Assembly (NCBI GenBank): GCA_029247135.1
Contig: JAQWLS010000100.1
Span: 1 to 39,829, forward strand
Length of the DNA stretch: 39,829 nucleotides
Source: Dehalococcoidia bacterium
GTDB lineage: Bacteria; Chloroflexota; Dehalococcoidia; UBA2979
Direction: 5' to 3'
The first letter of the stretch is position 1; each line of letters begins with the position of its first letter. A program made the position numbers and the translations under genes. The notes under the pieces are model-generated. The model was not told where the DNA came from. It was given only the letters and a program-made list of their open reading frames with translations, and searched no databases. This document shows positions 8,152-16,411 of this stretch, piece by piece.

Positions 8152-9123
8152 ATGAATGTAGGCGCACTGCAGTTTTTTTCATGGCCTGGTAGAAGAGTCC
8201 CACTTCCTGAAGTATACGAACGCGCATTATCTCGTGTTGAGATCATGGATCAAACCGGATATGACTGCGTGTGGTTAGCGGAGCATCATTTTTCGACGTA
8301 CTCCGTTTGTCCTTCGGTCCACATGATGGGAGTGCAAGTAGCCTCAAGGACTGAAAATATTCGAATTGGGATGGGGGTTACTCTGGCAGCGATGTATCAT
8401 CCGTTGCGAATTGCAGAAGAAGTCGCTTTGTTAGATCATTTCTCTGGTGGCCGAGTGAACTGGGGTGCTGGGCGTGGTTTTGATCGCAAAGAATATGAGA
8501 TCTTTGGGGTCACACCTGAGACTGGTGGTGAGCAATTTAGAGAAAATTTTCAAATTGTGGTTGAAGCCTGGAAGAATGAAAAACTGACGTATCATGGAAA
8601 ATATTGGGATTTTGAGGATGTCGAGGTCCTTCCCAAGCCACTTCAAGATCCACACCCACCGGTGTGGATGGCTGCAACATCACGAGAATCTATCGAAGCT
8701 GCTGCGAAACTAGGGTTTTCTATTCTTATGGATCCACATTCAAGCCATGAAGAAATTGGCGAGAAGAGACAGTTCTTTTTTGATACGTTAGAGGAACACG
8801 GTCATTCGACCGAAAATCGGATACTTCCGACTGCACGACTGATTGCTGTAGCTGATACTGATGCCGAGGCTGAGGCGATAGCGAGTCAGGGCGCAAAGTG
8901 GATGCTTGGGAGTTATATCAATCGCCCAGATGAAGATATGGATCCGGTTGATCGGTACGTGCAGAAGGTGATGATCCACGGAACAAAGGAGAAGGTAGTC
9001 GATGAAATTCTGCGCTTGCAGGAGGAAATCGGGCTCGATTATTTGATGTGTGCACCGCTCAGCCACGATAGTTTTGTTCGCTTTACGAATGATGTGTTGC
9101 CAAATTTGCCTATCAAAAATTAG
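8152..9123 (+). CDS. LLM-class flavin-dependent oxidoreductase (bacterial luciferase-like)
   Basis: This is a luciferase-family TIM-barrel monooxygenase that would use reduced FMN or F420. Marks are the opening GALQFFSWPG, the AEHHFSTYSVCPS loop, GVTLAAMYHPLRIAEEVA, DHFSGGRVNWGAGRGFD and PVWMAATS. The ORF track begins at a TTG (8128), but GGGAAGGA lies just before the ATG at 8152, giving 323 residues. Paralogue expansions of this family are reported for SAR202 Chloroflexota, where they are thought to attack recalcitrant organic matter. The substrate is unknown. The gene is followed 183 bases later by a TPP enzyme with its own promoter-like signal. Confidence 0.92.
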   Translation: MNVGALQFFSWPGRRVPLPEVYERALSRVEIMDQTGYDCVWLAEHHFSTYSVCPSVHMMGVQVASRTENIRIGMGVTLAAMYHPLRIAEEVALLDHFSGGRVNWGAGRGFDRKEYEIFGVTPETGGEQFRENFQIVVEAWKNEKLTYHGKYWDFEDVEVLPKPLQDPHPPVWMAATSRESIEAAAKLGFSILMDPHSSHEEIGEKRQFFFDTLEEHGHSTENRILPTARLIAVADTDAEAEAIASQGAKWMLGSYINRPDEDMDPVDRYVQKVMIHGTKEKVVDEILRLQEEIGLDYLMCAPLSHDSFVRFTNDVLPNLPIKN

Positions 9124-9182
9124 AAAGATAAATCGTCGTTGAGGTTGGATGGTGTCGATCAGATTAGATCGCGCGTCTGGCC

Positions 9183-9209
9183 TTGTAAACACCTACTACT
9201 TGGTATAAC
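9183..9209 (+). promoter_or_regulatory. candidate sigma-70-type promoter for the TPP enzyme gene
   Basis: TTGTAA (9183-9188) and an extended -10 element TGG-TATAAC (9201-9209) are separated by 15 bases. Spacing is short, but the TG extension compensates in known promoters. It lies about 100 bases upstream of the GTG start of the TPP enzyme. Prediction by eye only. Confidence 0.45.
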
Positions 9210-9234
9210 TTGAGGCTAATAACAAAACGTTTAG

Positions 9235-9258
9235 CTTGTAGAATTTTTAAGCTACAAG
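9235..9258 (+). repeat. 7-bp inverted repeat in the TPP enzyme leader
   Basis: CTTGTAG and CTACAAG flank a 10-base AT-rich loop, about 26 bases downstream of the candidate -10 element. It could be an operator or a leader hairpin. It is not a convincing terminator because no T tract follows. Confidence 0.45.
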
Positions 9259-9306
9259 ACTGTCAAAGAAGCTCCGTGTTGTGGGCTAATTAGGGGGATA
9301 TGTACT

Positions 9307-10941
9307 GTGTTAGTTTCTGATGCTATAGCTGAAATATTAAAGCGAGAGGGTGTTGAATTTATAGTTGGATATCCAGTGAATCCGATTATTGAGGCTGCCG
9401 CTCGGGCAGATATTCGAACGATTATCGTGCGACAAGAGCGAACTGGTATTCATATGGCTGACGCGTTTAGTCGTATCAATTCTGGCGATGAAATCGGTGT
9501 TTTTGTGATGCAACATGGTCCAGGGAGTGAGAATGCGTTTGGAGGAGTCGCTCAAGCGTATGGCGACTCAGTACCGATCATTATAATTCCTGCCGGTTAC
9601 GATCGAAAACTTACGAATGTCACTCCTAATTTCAGTAGTCTTTTAAACTTCCAGCACGTTGCGAAGTCAGTCGAGCAGGTTACTGTGTCGTCTGCAATCC
9701 CAGATGCTATGCGTAGGGCATTTAGTGCTGTGAGAAATGGTCGACCACGTCCGGCAGTAATTGAAATCCCAACTGACGTGTTTCCTGAAGAGATTGAGTC
9801 ACTGTCTTATACAGCGGTAAAGGTCGCACGATCAGCTCCTGATCCAGCTGATGTCTCGAAGGCCGCAGAAATTCTGGTAAACGCTGCCAGTCCAGTGATT
9901 TATGCGGGACAGGGAGTGCATTATGCCAAGGCATGGGAAGAGCTGAAAGAGCTGGCCGAGCTGCTTGAGGTGCCTGTTACAACAAGTCTTGAAGGAAAGA
10001 GTGCATTTCCGGAAACCCATCCATTGGCCCTCGGTTCGGGCGGACGGGCACTACCCAAGCCGGTCCATCACTTCATTCAGAACGCAGACGTTATCTTTGG
10101 TATTGGTTGTTCATTTTTCGCAACTGGATTTGGAATTCAAATTCCAAAAGGCAAAACCGTGATTCATTCAACTTTGGACCCGCTGGACCTCGACAATACA
10201 GTTGAAGTAACTCAGCCGTTAGTCGGCGACGCAAAATTAACCCTTGCTGCTCTTATTCCCGAGGTTCGCGCACTGGTAGGTGATGGTGGACGGGGACGAG
10301 CAGACGGTGTCGCAGCAGAAATTGCTTCTATCCGCGACGAGTGGATAACTGACTGGCGGCCGCGACTTGATGACAACAGCGCTCCGCTATCACCCTACAG
10401 AGTTATTCGGGATTTACATGCAACGGTGGATGTAGATAACACGATCATCACGCATGATGCTGGCAGTCCCAGAGATCAGTTGTCGCCATTTTGGACTACA
10501 GATGTACCACTAAGTTACATTGGCTGGGGAAAAACTACACAGCTGGGGTACGGACTTGGTCTGGCTATGGGTGCGAAATTAGCTCGCCCCGATAAGCTCT
10601 GTATAAACGTGTGGGGTGACGCGGCTATTGGATTTACAGGAATGGATTTTGAGACAGCCGTTCGTGAGAATATTCCAATTTTATCTATTCTGTTCAATAA
10701 TTTTTCAATGGCAATTGAGTTACCGATTATGCAAGTGGCTCGTGAGAAATACGGATCTACCGATATTTCAGGTAATTACGCAGATATGGCTAAAGCTTTT
10801 GGTGGTTACGGTGAGCGTATTGAACGACCAGAGGATATCATTCCAGCAATTGAACGAGGTATACAAAAGACTCAGGAGGGTACTGCGGTACTTCTTGAGT
10901 TTATTACTCAACAGGACCACACCTATTCGGTATTCAAGTAG
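9307..10941 (+). CDS. thiamine-pyrophosphate-requiring enzyme, acetolactate synthase-like
   Basis: This 544-residue protein has the three-domain plan of the acetolactate synthase/benzoylformate decarboxylase family. The N-terminal domain carries the cofactor-activating Glu in VRQERTGIHMADAFSR (about 41-56). The middle domain (about 185-315) corresponds to the FAD/ADP-fold domain. The C-terminal domain carries the TPP-Mg motif as GDAAIGF followed about 20 residues later by NN. The start is GTG, preceded by a G-rich stretch (AGGGGG). No regulatory small subunit (ilvN-like) is adjacent, and an isolated catalytic subunit is more often a catabolic carboligase or decarboxylase than biosynthetic AHAS. 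The reaction is not predictable. Confidence 0.88.
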   Translation: MLVSDAIAEILKREGVEFIVGYPVNPIIEAAARADIRTIIVRQERTGIHMADAFSRINSGDEIGVFVMQHGPGSENAFGGVAQAYGDSVPIIIIPAGYDRKLTNVTPNFSSLLNFQHVAKSVEQVTVSSAIPDAMRRAFSAVRNGRPRPAVIEIPTDVFPEEIESLSYTAVKVARSAPDPADVSKAAEILVNAASPVIYAGQGVHYAKAWEELKELAELLEVPVTTSLEGKSAFPETHPLALGSGGRALPKPVHHFIQNADVIFGIGCSFFATGFGIQIPKGKTVIHSTLDPLDLDNTVEVTQPLVGDAKLTLAALIPEVRALVGDGGRGRADGVAAEIASIRDEWITDWRPRLDDNSAPLSPYRVIRDLHATVDVDNTIITHDAGSPRDQLSPFWTTDVPLSYIGWGKTTQLGYGLGLAMGAKLARPDKLCINVWGDAAIGFTGMDFETAVRENIPILSILFNNFSMAIELPIMQVAREKYGSTDISGNYADMAKAFGGYGERIERPEDIIPAIERGIQKTQEGTAVLLEFITQQDHTYSVFK

Positions 10942-11249
10942 TATCTTGCGCTATCAGGGTTATCTTATTTCCCTTATGTAGCAAGGCCTTCTGTCTCATC
11001 GTTGATCTGCGTTGATCTAGGTCTATCTGGAGTTATGTGCCCAAATTGTGCCCCGTGCGGGTCAAAGGATCGGCAGGTCTTCTCTTATAGGTGGGGAGTG
11101 GCCATTGATATTTTCCCGAGTTCTCGAAGTGGTGCATGGGAGGGCAAGAGGTGGCACCTCCGTCCAATGTATGACATGGACTTTATAGCCAAAAGGTACA
11201 TACAAATTTTTAAAAAATAGCTACGATCGGTTCGTGGGAGGAGTCACAA
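10942..11249. other. 308-base stretch without a convincing gene
   Basis: The ORF track offers a 72-residue plus-strand frame (11002-11220). Its internal ATG at 11035 would give a protein starting MCPNCAPCGSKDRQ, faintly like a zinc ribbon, but no properly spaced ribosome binding site is present and the rest shows no family pattern. Its stop lies 29 bases before the small membrane protein gene, so the stretch may simply hold the promoter and leader of that gene. I see no terminator for the TPP enzyme. Confidence 0.4.
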
Positions 11250-11342
11250 ATGGGTATTGGATTGTCTTTTTGGGACATGATTATGTTGGTAGCGGTGTTT
11301 GGAATCGGATATTCCGTTTTCAAGAAATATATAGGCAAGTAA
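11250..11342 (+). CDS. 30-residue single-helix membrane protein (too short for the ORF track)
   Basis: A GGGAGGAG Shine-Dalgarno (11236-11243) lies 6 bases before an ATG that opens a 30-codon frame ending in TAA. The peptide starts MGIGLSFWDM, continues with a hydrophobic stretch (IMLVAVFGIGYSVF) and ends in the basic tail KKYIGK. That is the layout of a small one-pass inner-membrane protein with its C-terminus inside. The ribosome binding site is among the best in the window, which argues for translation. Function is unknown; known proteins of this type often modulate larger membrane complexes. Confidence 0.65.
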   Translation: MGIGLSFWDMIMLVAVFGIGYSVFKKYIGK

Positions 11343-11367
11343 AAAAAGTGCTAAGGAAAATATTGAA

Positions 11368-11394
11368 CAAAAACAAAGCGCCCCGTAAGGCGCT
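11368..11394 (-). terminator. rho-independent terminator of the DMFase-like gene
   Basis: On the minus strand AGCGCC and GGCGCT pair around a TTACGG loop, followed by TTTGTTTTTGTT. It sits about 140 bases beyond the stop of the DMFase-like gene. The plus-strand side lacks a T tract, so it acts mainly in the minus direction. Confidence 0.7.
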
Positions 11395-11532
11395 CTGATG
11401 TTGGAATAGAATTCGTCAATTATAATACAAATTGAAGTCCGTATGTGGATTTAAGAGAGACCTGAAGAACTCCCTTACTGACCTACGGGATGGTTGTTGA
11501 TACTTTTAGTGCAGAGTCCAGTAGTGCTTGGT

Positions 11533-13737
11533 TTATAAAGAAGCGAATTGACGAATAACATTTTCGAGCATTTGTGAAATGCCATTATCTCCATCATTGT
11601 GATTCAGGCTGCCACAAAAGCAAATGGATCCGACAGAGAATATTGCGCCACCATTGGGCTTGGGGCAGTAGACGATTTCCGCTCGAACTAGATCTTCAGG
11701 GCGTTCTCCTGTTTCTGTATTAATGTGAGTTAGTAACTCTTCGGGTACCGCTATGAAGCTATCACTATGATTTTCGCTTACGGCGAGAATGATTGTTTCT
11801 GGCGGGGTGCCAAGTTCCAGATCTGCCCGATCCAGTTCAAATCCTGCAGCACCGCCCCCACTCAACCCATAATTACCTAATTTCTCTTCGTTGACGTTCT
11901 TGAAAATCCAAGCGACATTTTCTTGGTAACTTTCGCGCGTCCGTTTGTAGTAAGAACTTTCAAAAAGCCCCTGAGCTGAAAATCCCACGCCGACAAGTTT
12001 TTGTGGTGGGCGGCCATTACGTCTCCATAACCCACCGTATCCACCATCCAGTTGGTGGTGAGACTCACCAGGCTTAGGTGACCAAGCGCGTATACCACCT
12101 TCTGCCCGCCGTAGTTCGATAACACCAGGGAGGGTGGGGAGACGCGTTATTTTCCAGTAAAAGCCATTACCCCCAAGATATACCAAATGCCCGCCCGAAT
12201 CGACGTAACTTTGAAGGGAATCCAGCATCTTGCCAGTATGATATTCCGGATGTGAACTAGTAAGAATCGTGTCGTAGCTCGCTAGTAATTCCGGGCCCTC
12301 GTTGTCGAGATCCTCGTCAGTAACTACATCGAACGGGATTCCTTTTTTCTCTAACCAATACAAAAGATGGGTATCGGCTGAAAAGTGTCTTAAACCAGAC
12401 CCGGCTTTATCAGTGAAGGTGATATAGCCCGGACGAACGGTTAGTGCTGGCCGAAGTCGAGATGAAATTGATATACCTGTTCCATCTGGATGAAAATTAT
12501 ATGTGGAACGCCCGTAGATTGGATAATCGTCAGGATTGAAAGGACTAGCGTTCCATTCTTTCATTCGAGTTCGCATTTCACTATCACAATTACCACGTGC
12601 ATGATTTGTGTAGGCTTGATGAGTAAATGTAGATGCTAAGAAGCATATTTTGTTTTTTGGACCACTTTTGGCAGGCAGCACGTAAAAGGGGAGAATATCA
12701 GTGGAGTCATCTTTTTGAAGCCTGACACCATAAACACCACTTGGAGTGTCCGATGGAATCGTGATTTGAAAATCAGTCTCCCAATCGCAGTCGTAGAGAT
12801 CGTCCTCATGAAAGTGAATTGCTGCATACTCACGCGGGGCCTTTTGCCAATCCATTTCGTTGCCTGACCAACGCGAGCCTGACATTCCTCGGTAGGGGAT
12901 ATTGATTAATCTCCCAGACAGGCCAAATGGACCTTTATCAACAATGCTTTGAGTTTCGATGCCAATGGCAAAGTCCCACCAGGCTAGGATGGCACCTGAG
13001 GGTGCTTCGTGCGGAGATGGTAACGTTTCTGGTTCTAAATATGACTCATTATAAAAAGCAGGATCCTCCAAACGACCGTTGAAATGATCCTCAGAAATTG
13101 ATTCGGTTTTACGAGCTGCGAAGACAAGATCAATTTTATTTGGAAGTGGTGCAAGGTCCTTTGACTCTGATAGGCTTTTTATCTTCTCATCTTTAAGGTC
13201 TCGGACACCGAGAATCAGGTGATTCTTGGAAATATCATAGCCAGCCCAAACGTGATGCCAATTTTTGTATGTGAGCACGTCTGGTAATTCGACTTGATGC
13301 AATTCTGATCCATTTGCTTGATAAGAGAATGCGAGCGTTCCTTGTCTGGCACTCAGTTGCCACCCGGCGCCTGAACTATCGAGTGCACTGGCGATTACCG
13401 AGGTCTCTTCTTTAAGAAGCCATGGTTGAACTAATACTGTGAATAACATTCTCTCTGCAGTGAAATAATTATTACCAGGCACGACTGCATATGAACCAAT
13501 GTTGATGTCTTGAAATCGTGCCTGATAGCTTGGTTCGAGGCCGAAAGCACGCGGCTCGTATAGTACATCGGGGCCCGCAGGATTTGGATCTCCGGAGATA
13601 ATTCTGACAGTATCGACGTCAAATGTTCCCTGAAAATCGGCACTGACTTTAACGGAAATCGATTCTCCTGGGCGGGCAGACATTGGATCAAGATAGCCGG
13701 TGATTGGGAGGACAGCTCTTTTCAAATGCTTTGTCAC
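11533..13737 (-). CDS. N,N-dimethylformamidase large (beta) subunit-like protein
   Basis: The protein resembles the large subunit of N,N-dimethylformamidase, which hydrolyses DMF to dimethylamine and formate at a mononuclear iron. After an N-terminal beta domain (ITGYLDPMSARPGESISV) comes a LamG/concanavalin-like region (about residues 85-235), then a C-terminal Rossmann-like catalytic domain. SSHPEYHTG (His496, Glu498) fits the H-x-E iron ligands recalled for Paracoccus DMFase; Tyr413 in RSTYNFH is the likely tyrosine ligand. The ORF track starts at TTG (13785). I prefer GTG at 13737, with AAAGGA 6 bases upstream and a start near the conserved GYLD region, giving 734 residues. No small subunit gene is adjacent. 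A different amide or nitrile-derived substrate is quite possible. Confidence 0.82.
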   Translation of the reverse strand: MTKHLKRAVLPITGYLDPMSARPGESISVKVSADFQGTFDVDTVRIISGDPNPAGPDVLYEPRAFGLEPSYQARFQDINIGSYAVVPGNNYFTAERMLFTVLVQPWLLKEETSVIASALDSSGAGWQLSARQGTLAFSYQANGSELHQVELPDVLTYKNWHHVWAGYDISKNHLILGVRDLKDEKIKSLSESKDLAPLPNKIDLVFAARKTESISEDHFNGRLEDPAFYNESYLEPETLPSPHEAPSGAILAWWDFAIGIETQSIVDKGPFGLSGRLINIPYRGMSGSRWSGNEMDWQKAPREYAAIHFHEDDLYDCDWETDFQITIPSDTPSGVYGVRLQKDDSTDILPFYVLPAKSGPKNKICFLASTFTHQAYTNHARGNCDSEMRTRMKEWNASPFNPDDYPIYGRSTYNFHPDGTGISISSRLRPALTVRPGYITFTDKAGSGLRHFSADTHLLYWLEKKGIPFDVVTDEDLDNEGPELLASYDTILTSSHPEYHTGKMLDSLQSYVDSGGHLVYLGGNGFYWKITRLPTLPGVIELRRAEGGIRAWSPKPGESHHQLDGGYGGLWRRNGRPPQKLVGVGFSAQGLFESSYYKRTRESYQENVAWIFKNVNEEKLGNYGLSGGGAAGFELDRADLELGTPPETIILAVSENHSDSFIAVPEELLTHINTETGERPEDLVRAEIVYCPKPNGGAIFSVGSICFCGSLNHNDGDNGISQMLENVIRQFASL

Positions 13738-15317: not shown

Positions 15318-15348
15318 TACATCTCTGATTATTGTTATGAGAGATGTA
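15318..15348. repeat. 9-bp inverted repeat at convergent gene ends
   Basis: TACATCTCT and AGAGATGTA pair around a 13-base loop that contains the TAA stop of the deacetylase gene. It lies between the converging GYD and deacetylase genes. It is AT-rich and has no T tract on either side, so it is at best a weak terminator or a 3'-end stabilising hairpin. Confidence 0.35.
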
Positions 15349-16411
15349 GTGAGGCAGCTATCTCCTCTATTAGAGCTTTCTGTGCAGGAGTGAGTTCTTG
15401 GCCGGGCATATCATCCCTGCCAGCTTGGTCACTAATTTCAGTTCTAAAACCACTTAACGCTTCAATTGTGGCAAGTCCACAAAATGGCACGTATCGCTTG
15501 GAATAGCCTCCTTCATGTGAAAGTACTAGTTTACTGTCACAGGCATCCGCGGCAATCGCCATTAGTTCTTTTGTGAGATCTCGGTATGCCTCGGCCGTAA
15601 GTAACATTCTTCCTAATGGGTCATAGACGCTCGCATCAAATCCGCATGGTACCAGAATTAGTTCGGGCTGAAAGGCCTTAACTGCCGGACCAATGATGCG
15701 TCTGAATACGGTTTCATAGGCGCCTCGACCCGAACCAGCCGGTAGAGGAATGTTTATGTTGTAATTTGCTCCAGAATTTACACCACGCTCTATAAATTTT
15801 CCCGACTCTGCTGGGAATAGCCCATCTTGATGAATTGAAATAGTTAATACGCTCGGGTCTTCGTAGAAGGCTTGTTGCGTGCCGTTTCCATGGTGAACAT
15901 CCCAGTCAATGGTGGCAATCCGTTCGATTCCCCATACTTCTTTGGCATGCATCGCAGCAAGCGCAACGTTAGCAAATATGCAGAAGCCTCTGCCTAAATC
16001 TCGTTCAGCGTGATGTCCAGGCGGCCGTACCAACGCGTATGCATTGGTGACTTCACCTTTAAGTACAGCATCAGTTGCAACTATGGTTCCACCTGCTGCT
16101 AGCTTCGCTATTTCGTACGAACCCGCACCAAATGGTGTACCTGGTCCGGCGAACCCACCATGCGCGTCACTCAAGGTACGTATTTCTGTTACATAATCCT
16201 CGGTGTGAAATCGCAGGAGTTCTTGTTCGGTAGCCATTCTCGGTTTGAGTTGCATTAATTCATCACTTAAGCCAGAAAGGTCGAGTAAATTTTTAAGTCT
16301 TCGCTTAGTATCGGCATTTTCAAAGTGTTCATCGGGTTCAATATTTGAGGTCGCACCACTCCCAGTATCGTGCCACATATATTTTTCGTGCCAAACAAAA
16401 CCAGTAGACAT
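15335..16411 (-). CDS. histone deacetylase family protein (acetylpolyamine amidohydrolase/AcuC-like)
   Basis: The 358-residue length and motifs match bacterial class II HDAC-like zinc amidohydrolases. The catalytic histidine pair is in RPPGHHAE (133-134). Zinc ligands are Asp171 and His173 in IDWDVHHGNGTQ and the Asp of VPCGFDAS (about 257). The C-terminal LSHEGGYS loop is typical. Such enzymes remove acetyl groups from polyamines, small amides or proteins in the cytoplasm. An AGGAG 10 bases upstream supports the ATG at 16411. An SDR gene ends 68 bases upstream on the same strand. Substrate unknown. Confidence 0.93.
   Translation of the reverse strand: MSTGFVWHEKYMWHDTGSGATSNIEPDEHFENADTKRRLKNLLDLSGLSDELMQLKPRMATEQELLRFHTEDYVTEIRTLSDAHGGFAGPGTPFGAGSYEIAKLAAGGTIVATDAVLKGEVTNAYALVRPPGHHAERDLGRGFCIFANVALAAMHAKEVWGIERIATIDWDVHHGNGTQQAFYEDPSVLTISIHQDGLFPAESGKFIERGVNSGANYNINIPLPAGSGRGAYETVFRRIIGPAVKAFQPELILVPCGFDASVYDPLGRMLLTAEAYRDLTKELMAIAADACDSKLVLSHEGGYSKRYVPFCGLATIEALSGFRTEISDQAGRDDMPGQELTPAQKALIEEIAASLHLS

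Follow-up and report, generated by a model that had tools for sequence, protein, structure and literature searches.

A 30-codon open reading frame of a Dehalococcoidia bacterium is very probably a gene for a small, fast-evolving membrane protein

We analyzed a stretch of 39,829 nucleotides from a Dehalococcoidia bacterium (the window; its genome is G000) and focused on the intergenic gap at 10942-11532, which is bounded by a gene for a thiamine pyrophosphate (TPP) enzyme (+ strand, ending at 10941) and by a convergent DMFase-like gene (- strand, ending at 11533). The first-pass annotation had placed an unlisted open reading frame (ORF) of 30 residues alone between these two genes, and this is what the gap contains: the ORF (MGIGLSFWDMIMLVAVFGIGYSVFKKYIGK) occupies 11250-11342 on the + strand, starts with ATG, runs for 30 codons, and ends with TAA. 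The strong Shine-Dalgarno sequence claimed for it is also there (GGGAGGAG, 11236-11243, +), separated by the 6 bases TCACAA from the ATG, which is the sole ATG/GTG/TTG start in its frame 3' of the upstream stop. Can such an ORF arise by chance? When we counted ATG-started ORFs of 20 to 60 codons with a GGAGG-type Shine-Dalgarno sequence and a hydrophobic stretch, 11250-11342 was the only one in the window, and order-2 Markov sequence gave 0.16 comparable ORFs per 39.8 kb. Judged on the sequence alone, a chance origin is possible but not likely, so that conservation has to decide whether 11250-11342 is a gene. No promoter-like site for the small gene was seen on the + strand of the gap, an Rfam scan of the gap returned nothing above cutoffs, and the leader RNA folded with an energy no better than that of shuffled sequences (z -0.79).

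An operon with the TPP enzyme was rejected on the basis of the 308-base gap between the two genes and of the TPP locus in three other genomes (G001, G002, and G003), where no small gene of this kind follows the TPP gene; for the same reasons, we do not propose a functional link to the enzyme. On the other side of the ORF, a terminator-like hairpin (11374-11397, -; a 10-pair stem and then TTTTTG) belongs to the convergent DMFase-like gene and not to the small gene, and a matching hairpin lies downstream of the DMFase orthologue on contig C1 of G001. A recurrent element was also observed at 11366-11450 (-), consisting of a TATAAT-like box, ∼20 to 40 bases, GCGCCTTACGGGGCGC, and a T run. The same element occurs after the DMFase orthologue of G001 (C1:899-955) and at an unrelated place in that genome (C22:19596 onward), with a similar form on C71 of G002; it could represent either a tiny RNA gene or a terminator that these sites share. 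The TPP and DMFase-like genes of G001 are separated by ∼10 kb (L063 1973-11870; window counterpart, 11049-11126) with genes that, from their sequences, we take to be lipA, lipB, pyruvate dehydrogenase-like E1/E2/E3, an MFS transporter, and another enzyme. Because window positions 11049-11095 match DNA at both ends of this segment, recombination between direct repeats may have removed it from the window. Elsewhere, the window encodes a histone-deacetylase-superfamily protein (15335-16411, -; PF00850, E 2.2e-88). The gene content, with luciferase-like monooxygenases and CoA-transferase-like proteins, hints that the lineage may be SAR202-like.

The single hydrophobic helix and basic C-terminal tail noted in the first-pass annotation were borne out by the predicted peptide. 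Its most hydrophobic 19-residue stretch has a mean hydropathy of 1.9, and an AlphaFold2 model gave one helix at residues 3 to 28 (codons at 11256-11333, +; mean pLDDT 83), the hydrophobic stretch being followed by the basic tail KKYIGK. A single-helix model is expected for any such sequence and is no proof of function. As no residue upstream of position 25 is positively charged and three lysines follow, the topology expected for the window peptide by the positive-inside rule is N-out/C-in. With fewer than 50 codons, its own ribosome-binding site, and a single hydrophobic helix, it would fall among the bacterial small membrane proteins, which are a descriptive class and not a homologous family.

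A protein search of 44 genomes of the family revealed one clear homologue, in a member of the same genus (G001, Dehalococcoidia bacterium PW3.metabat2.132; C3:105780-105866). The G001 peptide (MFELSVFNLIITVAVFGLLYSVYKKYVGK) is identical to the window peptide at 17 of 29 positions and was found with a single-sequence E value of 6.8e-6; this is the independent value, as the profile that gave 2.7e-19 already includes the G001 sequence. The two copies have the same ribosome-binding site (GGAGGAGTCAC in G001) and share the position of the stop. Their DNA is 77% similar over a block of 111 bp (11237-11347, +) that covers the Shine-Dalgarno sequence, the ORF, and 5 bases beyond, and the flanks of the block are unrelated. 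Similarity bounded in this way by Shine-Dalgarno sequence and stop is the pattern expected of a gene. A 1-base indel between the Shine-Dalgarno sequence and codon 5 separates the copies, and despite it both have an in-frame ATG, 6 and 8 bases from the Shine-Dalgarno sequence. We regard the retention of an ATG in the right frame and at a workable spacing across this indel as the strongest coding evidence. The first-pass annotation had made its case depend on whether frame, start, and Shine-Dalgarno sequence persist in close relatives; all three are kept in G001, but the genomic position of the gene is not.

How strong is the sign of selection on the peptide? The invariant positions of the two clear members are concentrated in the C-terminal half (residues 14 to 30, VAVFG..YSV.KKY.GK), which in the predicted topology corresponds to the cytoplasmic tail and the half of the helix nearest to it. 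The 23 base changes between the copies are distributed as 8, 6, and 9 over codon positions 1, 2, and 3, and dN/dS is ∼0.53 over 29 codons. In a neutral simulation with the same 23 changes, the frame stayed open and the BLOSUM score was at least as good in 3% of runs. The preference for synonymous change that the first-pass annotation had proposed to look for is thus indicated weakly, because there are only two clear members. The neighboring TPP enzyme is 96% identical between G000 and G001, compared with 17 of 29 positions for the peptide, so the peptide evolves fast.

The G001 homologue sits between yggS and nrdR, at a locus unrelated to that of the window. On its 5' side is a decayed stretch in which two proteins, A and B, survive as remains that both look frameshifted; between this stretch and the small gene lies a perfect inverted repeat. 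On its 3' side and on the same strand is a gene for a 91-residue two-helix protein, which has a look-alike in the corresponding gap of G003; ftsZ is also among the neighbors. In G000 these pieces have counterparts on four contigs: C34 carries A, C28 carries B next to a ctaB-like gene, C47 carries the inverted repeat, and the contig of the window carries the small gene. The inverted repeat (GGTGACCCGTCAYTGGTGGACCAATGACGGGTC) is near-identical in G001 (L029 9717-9765, just before the small gene) and on C47 of G000 (L095 1501-1546, where it stands alone), and these are the only two places in the genus with the exact pattern. The remnant of gene A in G001 (L029 ∼9020-9540) lies between copies of a 20-base direct repeat (GGGGAAATTGGTTACACTCT), which suggests a duplication or an insertion.

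This patchwork of decayed genes and a dispersed hairpin, together with a dN/dS that is not low, is what could be expected if the conserved 111 bp were a non-coding or mobile DNA fragment in which the ORF is incidental. We consider this quite unlikely, since the conserved limits are the Shine-Dalgarno sequence and the stop, the in-frame ATG persists across the indel, many of the replacements are conservative (I/V, F/Y, M/I, and D/N), and the hydrophobic profile and the KKYxGK tail are kept. The leader fold no better than shuffles also speaks against it, as does the search for further copies of the small gene in G000 and G001, which found none; a second copy in G000 is possible, since the nrdR of that genome is at the end of a contig and no match to yggS was found there. 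Taken together, we judge the ORF very probably to be a real gene.

A probable, not proven, third family member lies in G002, where a hairpin-like half repeat comes after gene B and precedes a 23-residue hydrophobic ORF (MWKFSLLLIPVVAYGIYNAFRIF) with AAGGA before it. The position of this ORF matches that of the G001 copy, and it aligns above shuffled sequences with the G001 peptide (P 0.0024) and less clearly with the window peptide (P 0.015). G003 yielded no member and G002 this doubtful one only, both being metagenome-assembled genomes that are ∼75% complete. Protein B itself is an unannotated, small, charged protein of 51 to 57 aa with a GFNYWETVTQAELKAW core, found at different loci in three genomes of the genus (L093 on G000 C28; L098 on G002 C71; L029 9540-9720 in G001, where the copy looks frameshifted), and neither Pfam nor NCBIfam places it in a family above cutoff. 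One could read the small gene as half of a genus-specific two-gene cassette composed of a soluble B with its GFNYWETVTQAELKAW core, a hairpin, and the membrane peptide, which would move as a whole or in parts between intergenic sites and be kept by a selfish or stress function; we think this unlikely.

Wider searches added no members. Among the 41 other genomes of the family there was none beyond the window, G001, and the G002 candidate, and a class-wide sample of 393 genomes gave no further one; four weak class-level profile matches (E 0.005 to 0.009) were inspected and dismissed as apparent segments of longer ORFs or frames with no relation to the peptide. GTDB contigs held no member apart from the record of G001 itself. 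As tblastn confirmation at E 1e-3 is a strict demand on a 30-residue peptide, we added a scan of GTDB with a degenerate DNA pattern, which returned 16 stretches; only the G001 record contained a short ORF of this type, the rest being unrelated frames. Viral contigs, phages, and plasmids had no match to the peptide, and Pfam, NCBIfam, and PHROGs had nothing above cutoffs (sub-threshold matches in Pfam only; none in NCBIfam). Matches in the PDB to Cox3 (E 3.6) were dismissed as noise. The best Pfam match of the window peptide, Phage_coatGP8 (PF19199; residues 8 to 28, E 0.027), would suit a relic of a Gp8-like coat protein of a filamentous phage. However, the match scored 15.1 bits against a gathering cutoff of 24.6, it is absent for the G001 homologue, the phage-directed searches gave nothing, and there are no phage genes among the Pfam-scanned neighbors. 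Moreover, filamentous-phage coat proteins have an N-terminal amphipathic part for which the window peptide has no room, and we hold this origin to be highly improbable. As far as we searched, the gene is confined to one genus.

What might the product do? By analogy, it probably serves a larger membrane protein as an accessory helix. It would insert as one helix, with the short N terminus outside and the lysine-rich C terminus in the cytoplasm, and this helix with its conserved inner face (VAVFGxxYSVxKKYxGK) would dock on a larger membrane protein, as CydX and AcrZ do. These small peptides bind and tune larger membrane proteins, a well-documented role (PMC4325964, PMC7267776). The neighboring genes do not give the partner because the two genomes carry the gene at different loci: the window and G001 loci have nothing in common that suggests a complex, and no syntenic partner. 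We give even chances to the proposition as a whole, namely a stand-alone, fast-evolving, genus-restricted small membrane protein gene whose product acts as an accessory helix.

In the main rival to the accessory helix, the product would be a type I toxin-like or stress/dormancy peptide whose translation disturbs the membrane and which an antisense RNA or weak transcription normally keeps in check. The length, single helix, and lysine-rich cytoplasmic C terminus are common in such toxins (PMC8309996), the patchy occurrence, change of locus, and rapid divergence are in keeping with this reading, and metabolic silencing by a small membrane protein has a precedent in YohP (PMC12719787). Nevertheless, no antitoxin RNA was found: the Rfam scan of the gap gave nothing above cutoffs, promoter-like sites on the - strand were at chance level, and no 5' untranslated region or antisense promoter is kept between the loci, since the similarity ends at the Shine-Dalgarno sequence and just past the stop. 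No toxin family in Pfam or NCBIfam was matched either, and we regard the toxin-like peptide as a doubtful but serious possibility.

An accessory helix or not, the locus very probably contributes a real gene, and with it a small new protein family, to a mostly uncultivated lineage in which ORFs this short go unannotated. It also indicates that a 30-codon gene can be validated without synteny, by DNA shared with an unrelated locus over no more than a Shine-Dalgarno sequence and an ORF. The general picture is unchanged until a partner or a phenotype is found.

Compared with known systems, the gene is of an ordinary kind, common in bacteria, and its family is new. The type I toxins TisB (29 aa), Fst/Ldr, and DinQ resemble the peptide in size, in helix, and in a positive C terminus expected to be cytoplasmic (PMC8309996, PMC11449926), and the peptide has their hallmark of a short hydrophobic sequence with a basic C terminus (PMC8309996). 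It differs in that the searches made revealed neither an antisense RNA nor a conserved leader, and the PXXXGC motif of Fst/Ldr is absent from a peptide that contains no proline or cysteine. YohP likewise has fewer than 50 residues, a membrane location (predicted here for the window peptide), and no expected catalytic activity (PMC12719787), although no family-level match between the two was found. CydX is encoded with cydAB, whereas the neighbors here are the TPP enzyme and DMFase-like protein in the window and nrdR, ftsZ, and the two-helix protein in G001. The window peptide also differs from CydX and AcrZ in lacking Pfam or NCBIfam similarity above cutoff and in being encoded at different loci in different species. 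With CydX (37 aa) and AcrZ it nevertheless shares a length of fewer than 50 residues, a single hydrophobic helix, and a tendency to be missed by annotation (PMC4325964, PMC7267776).
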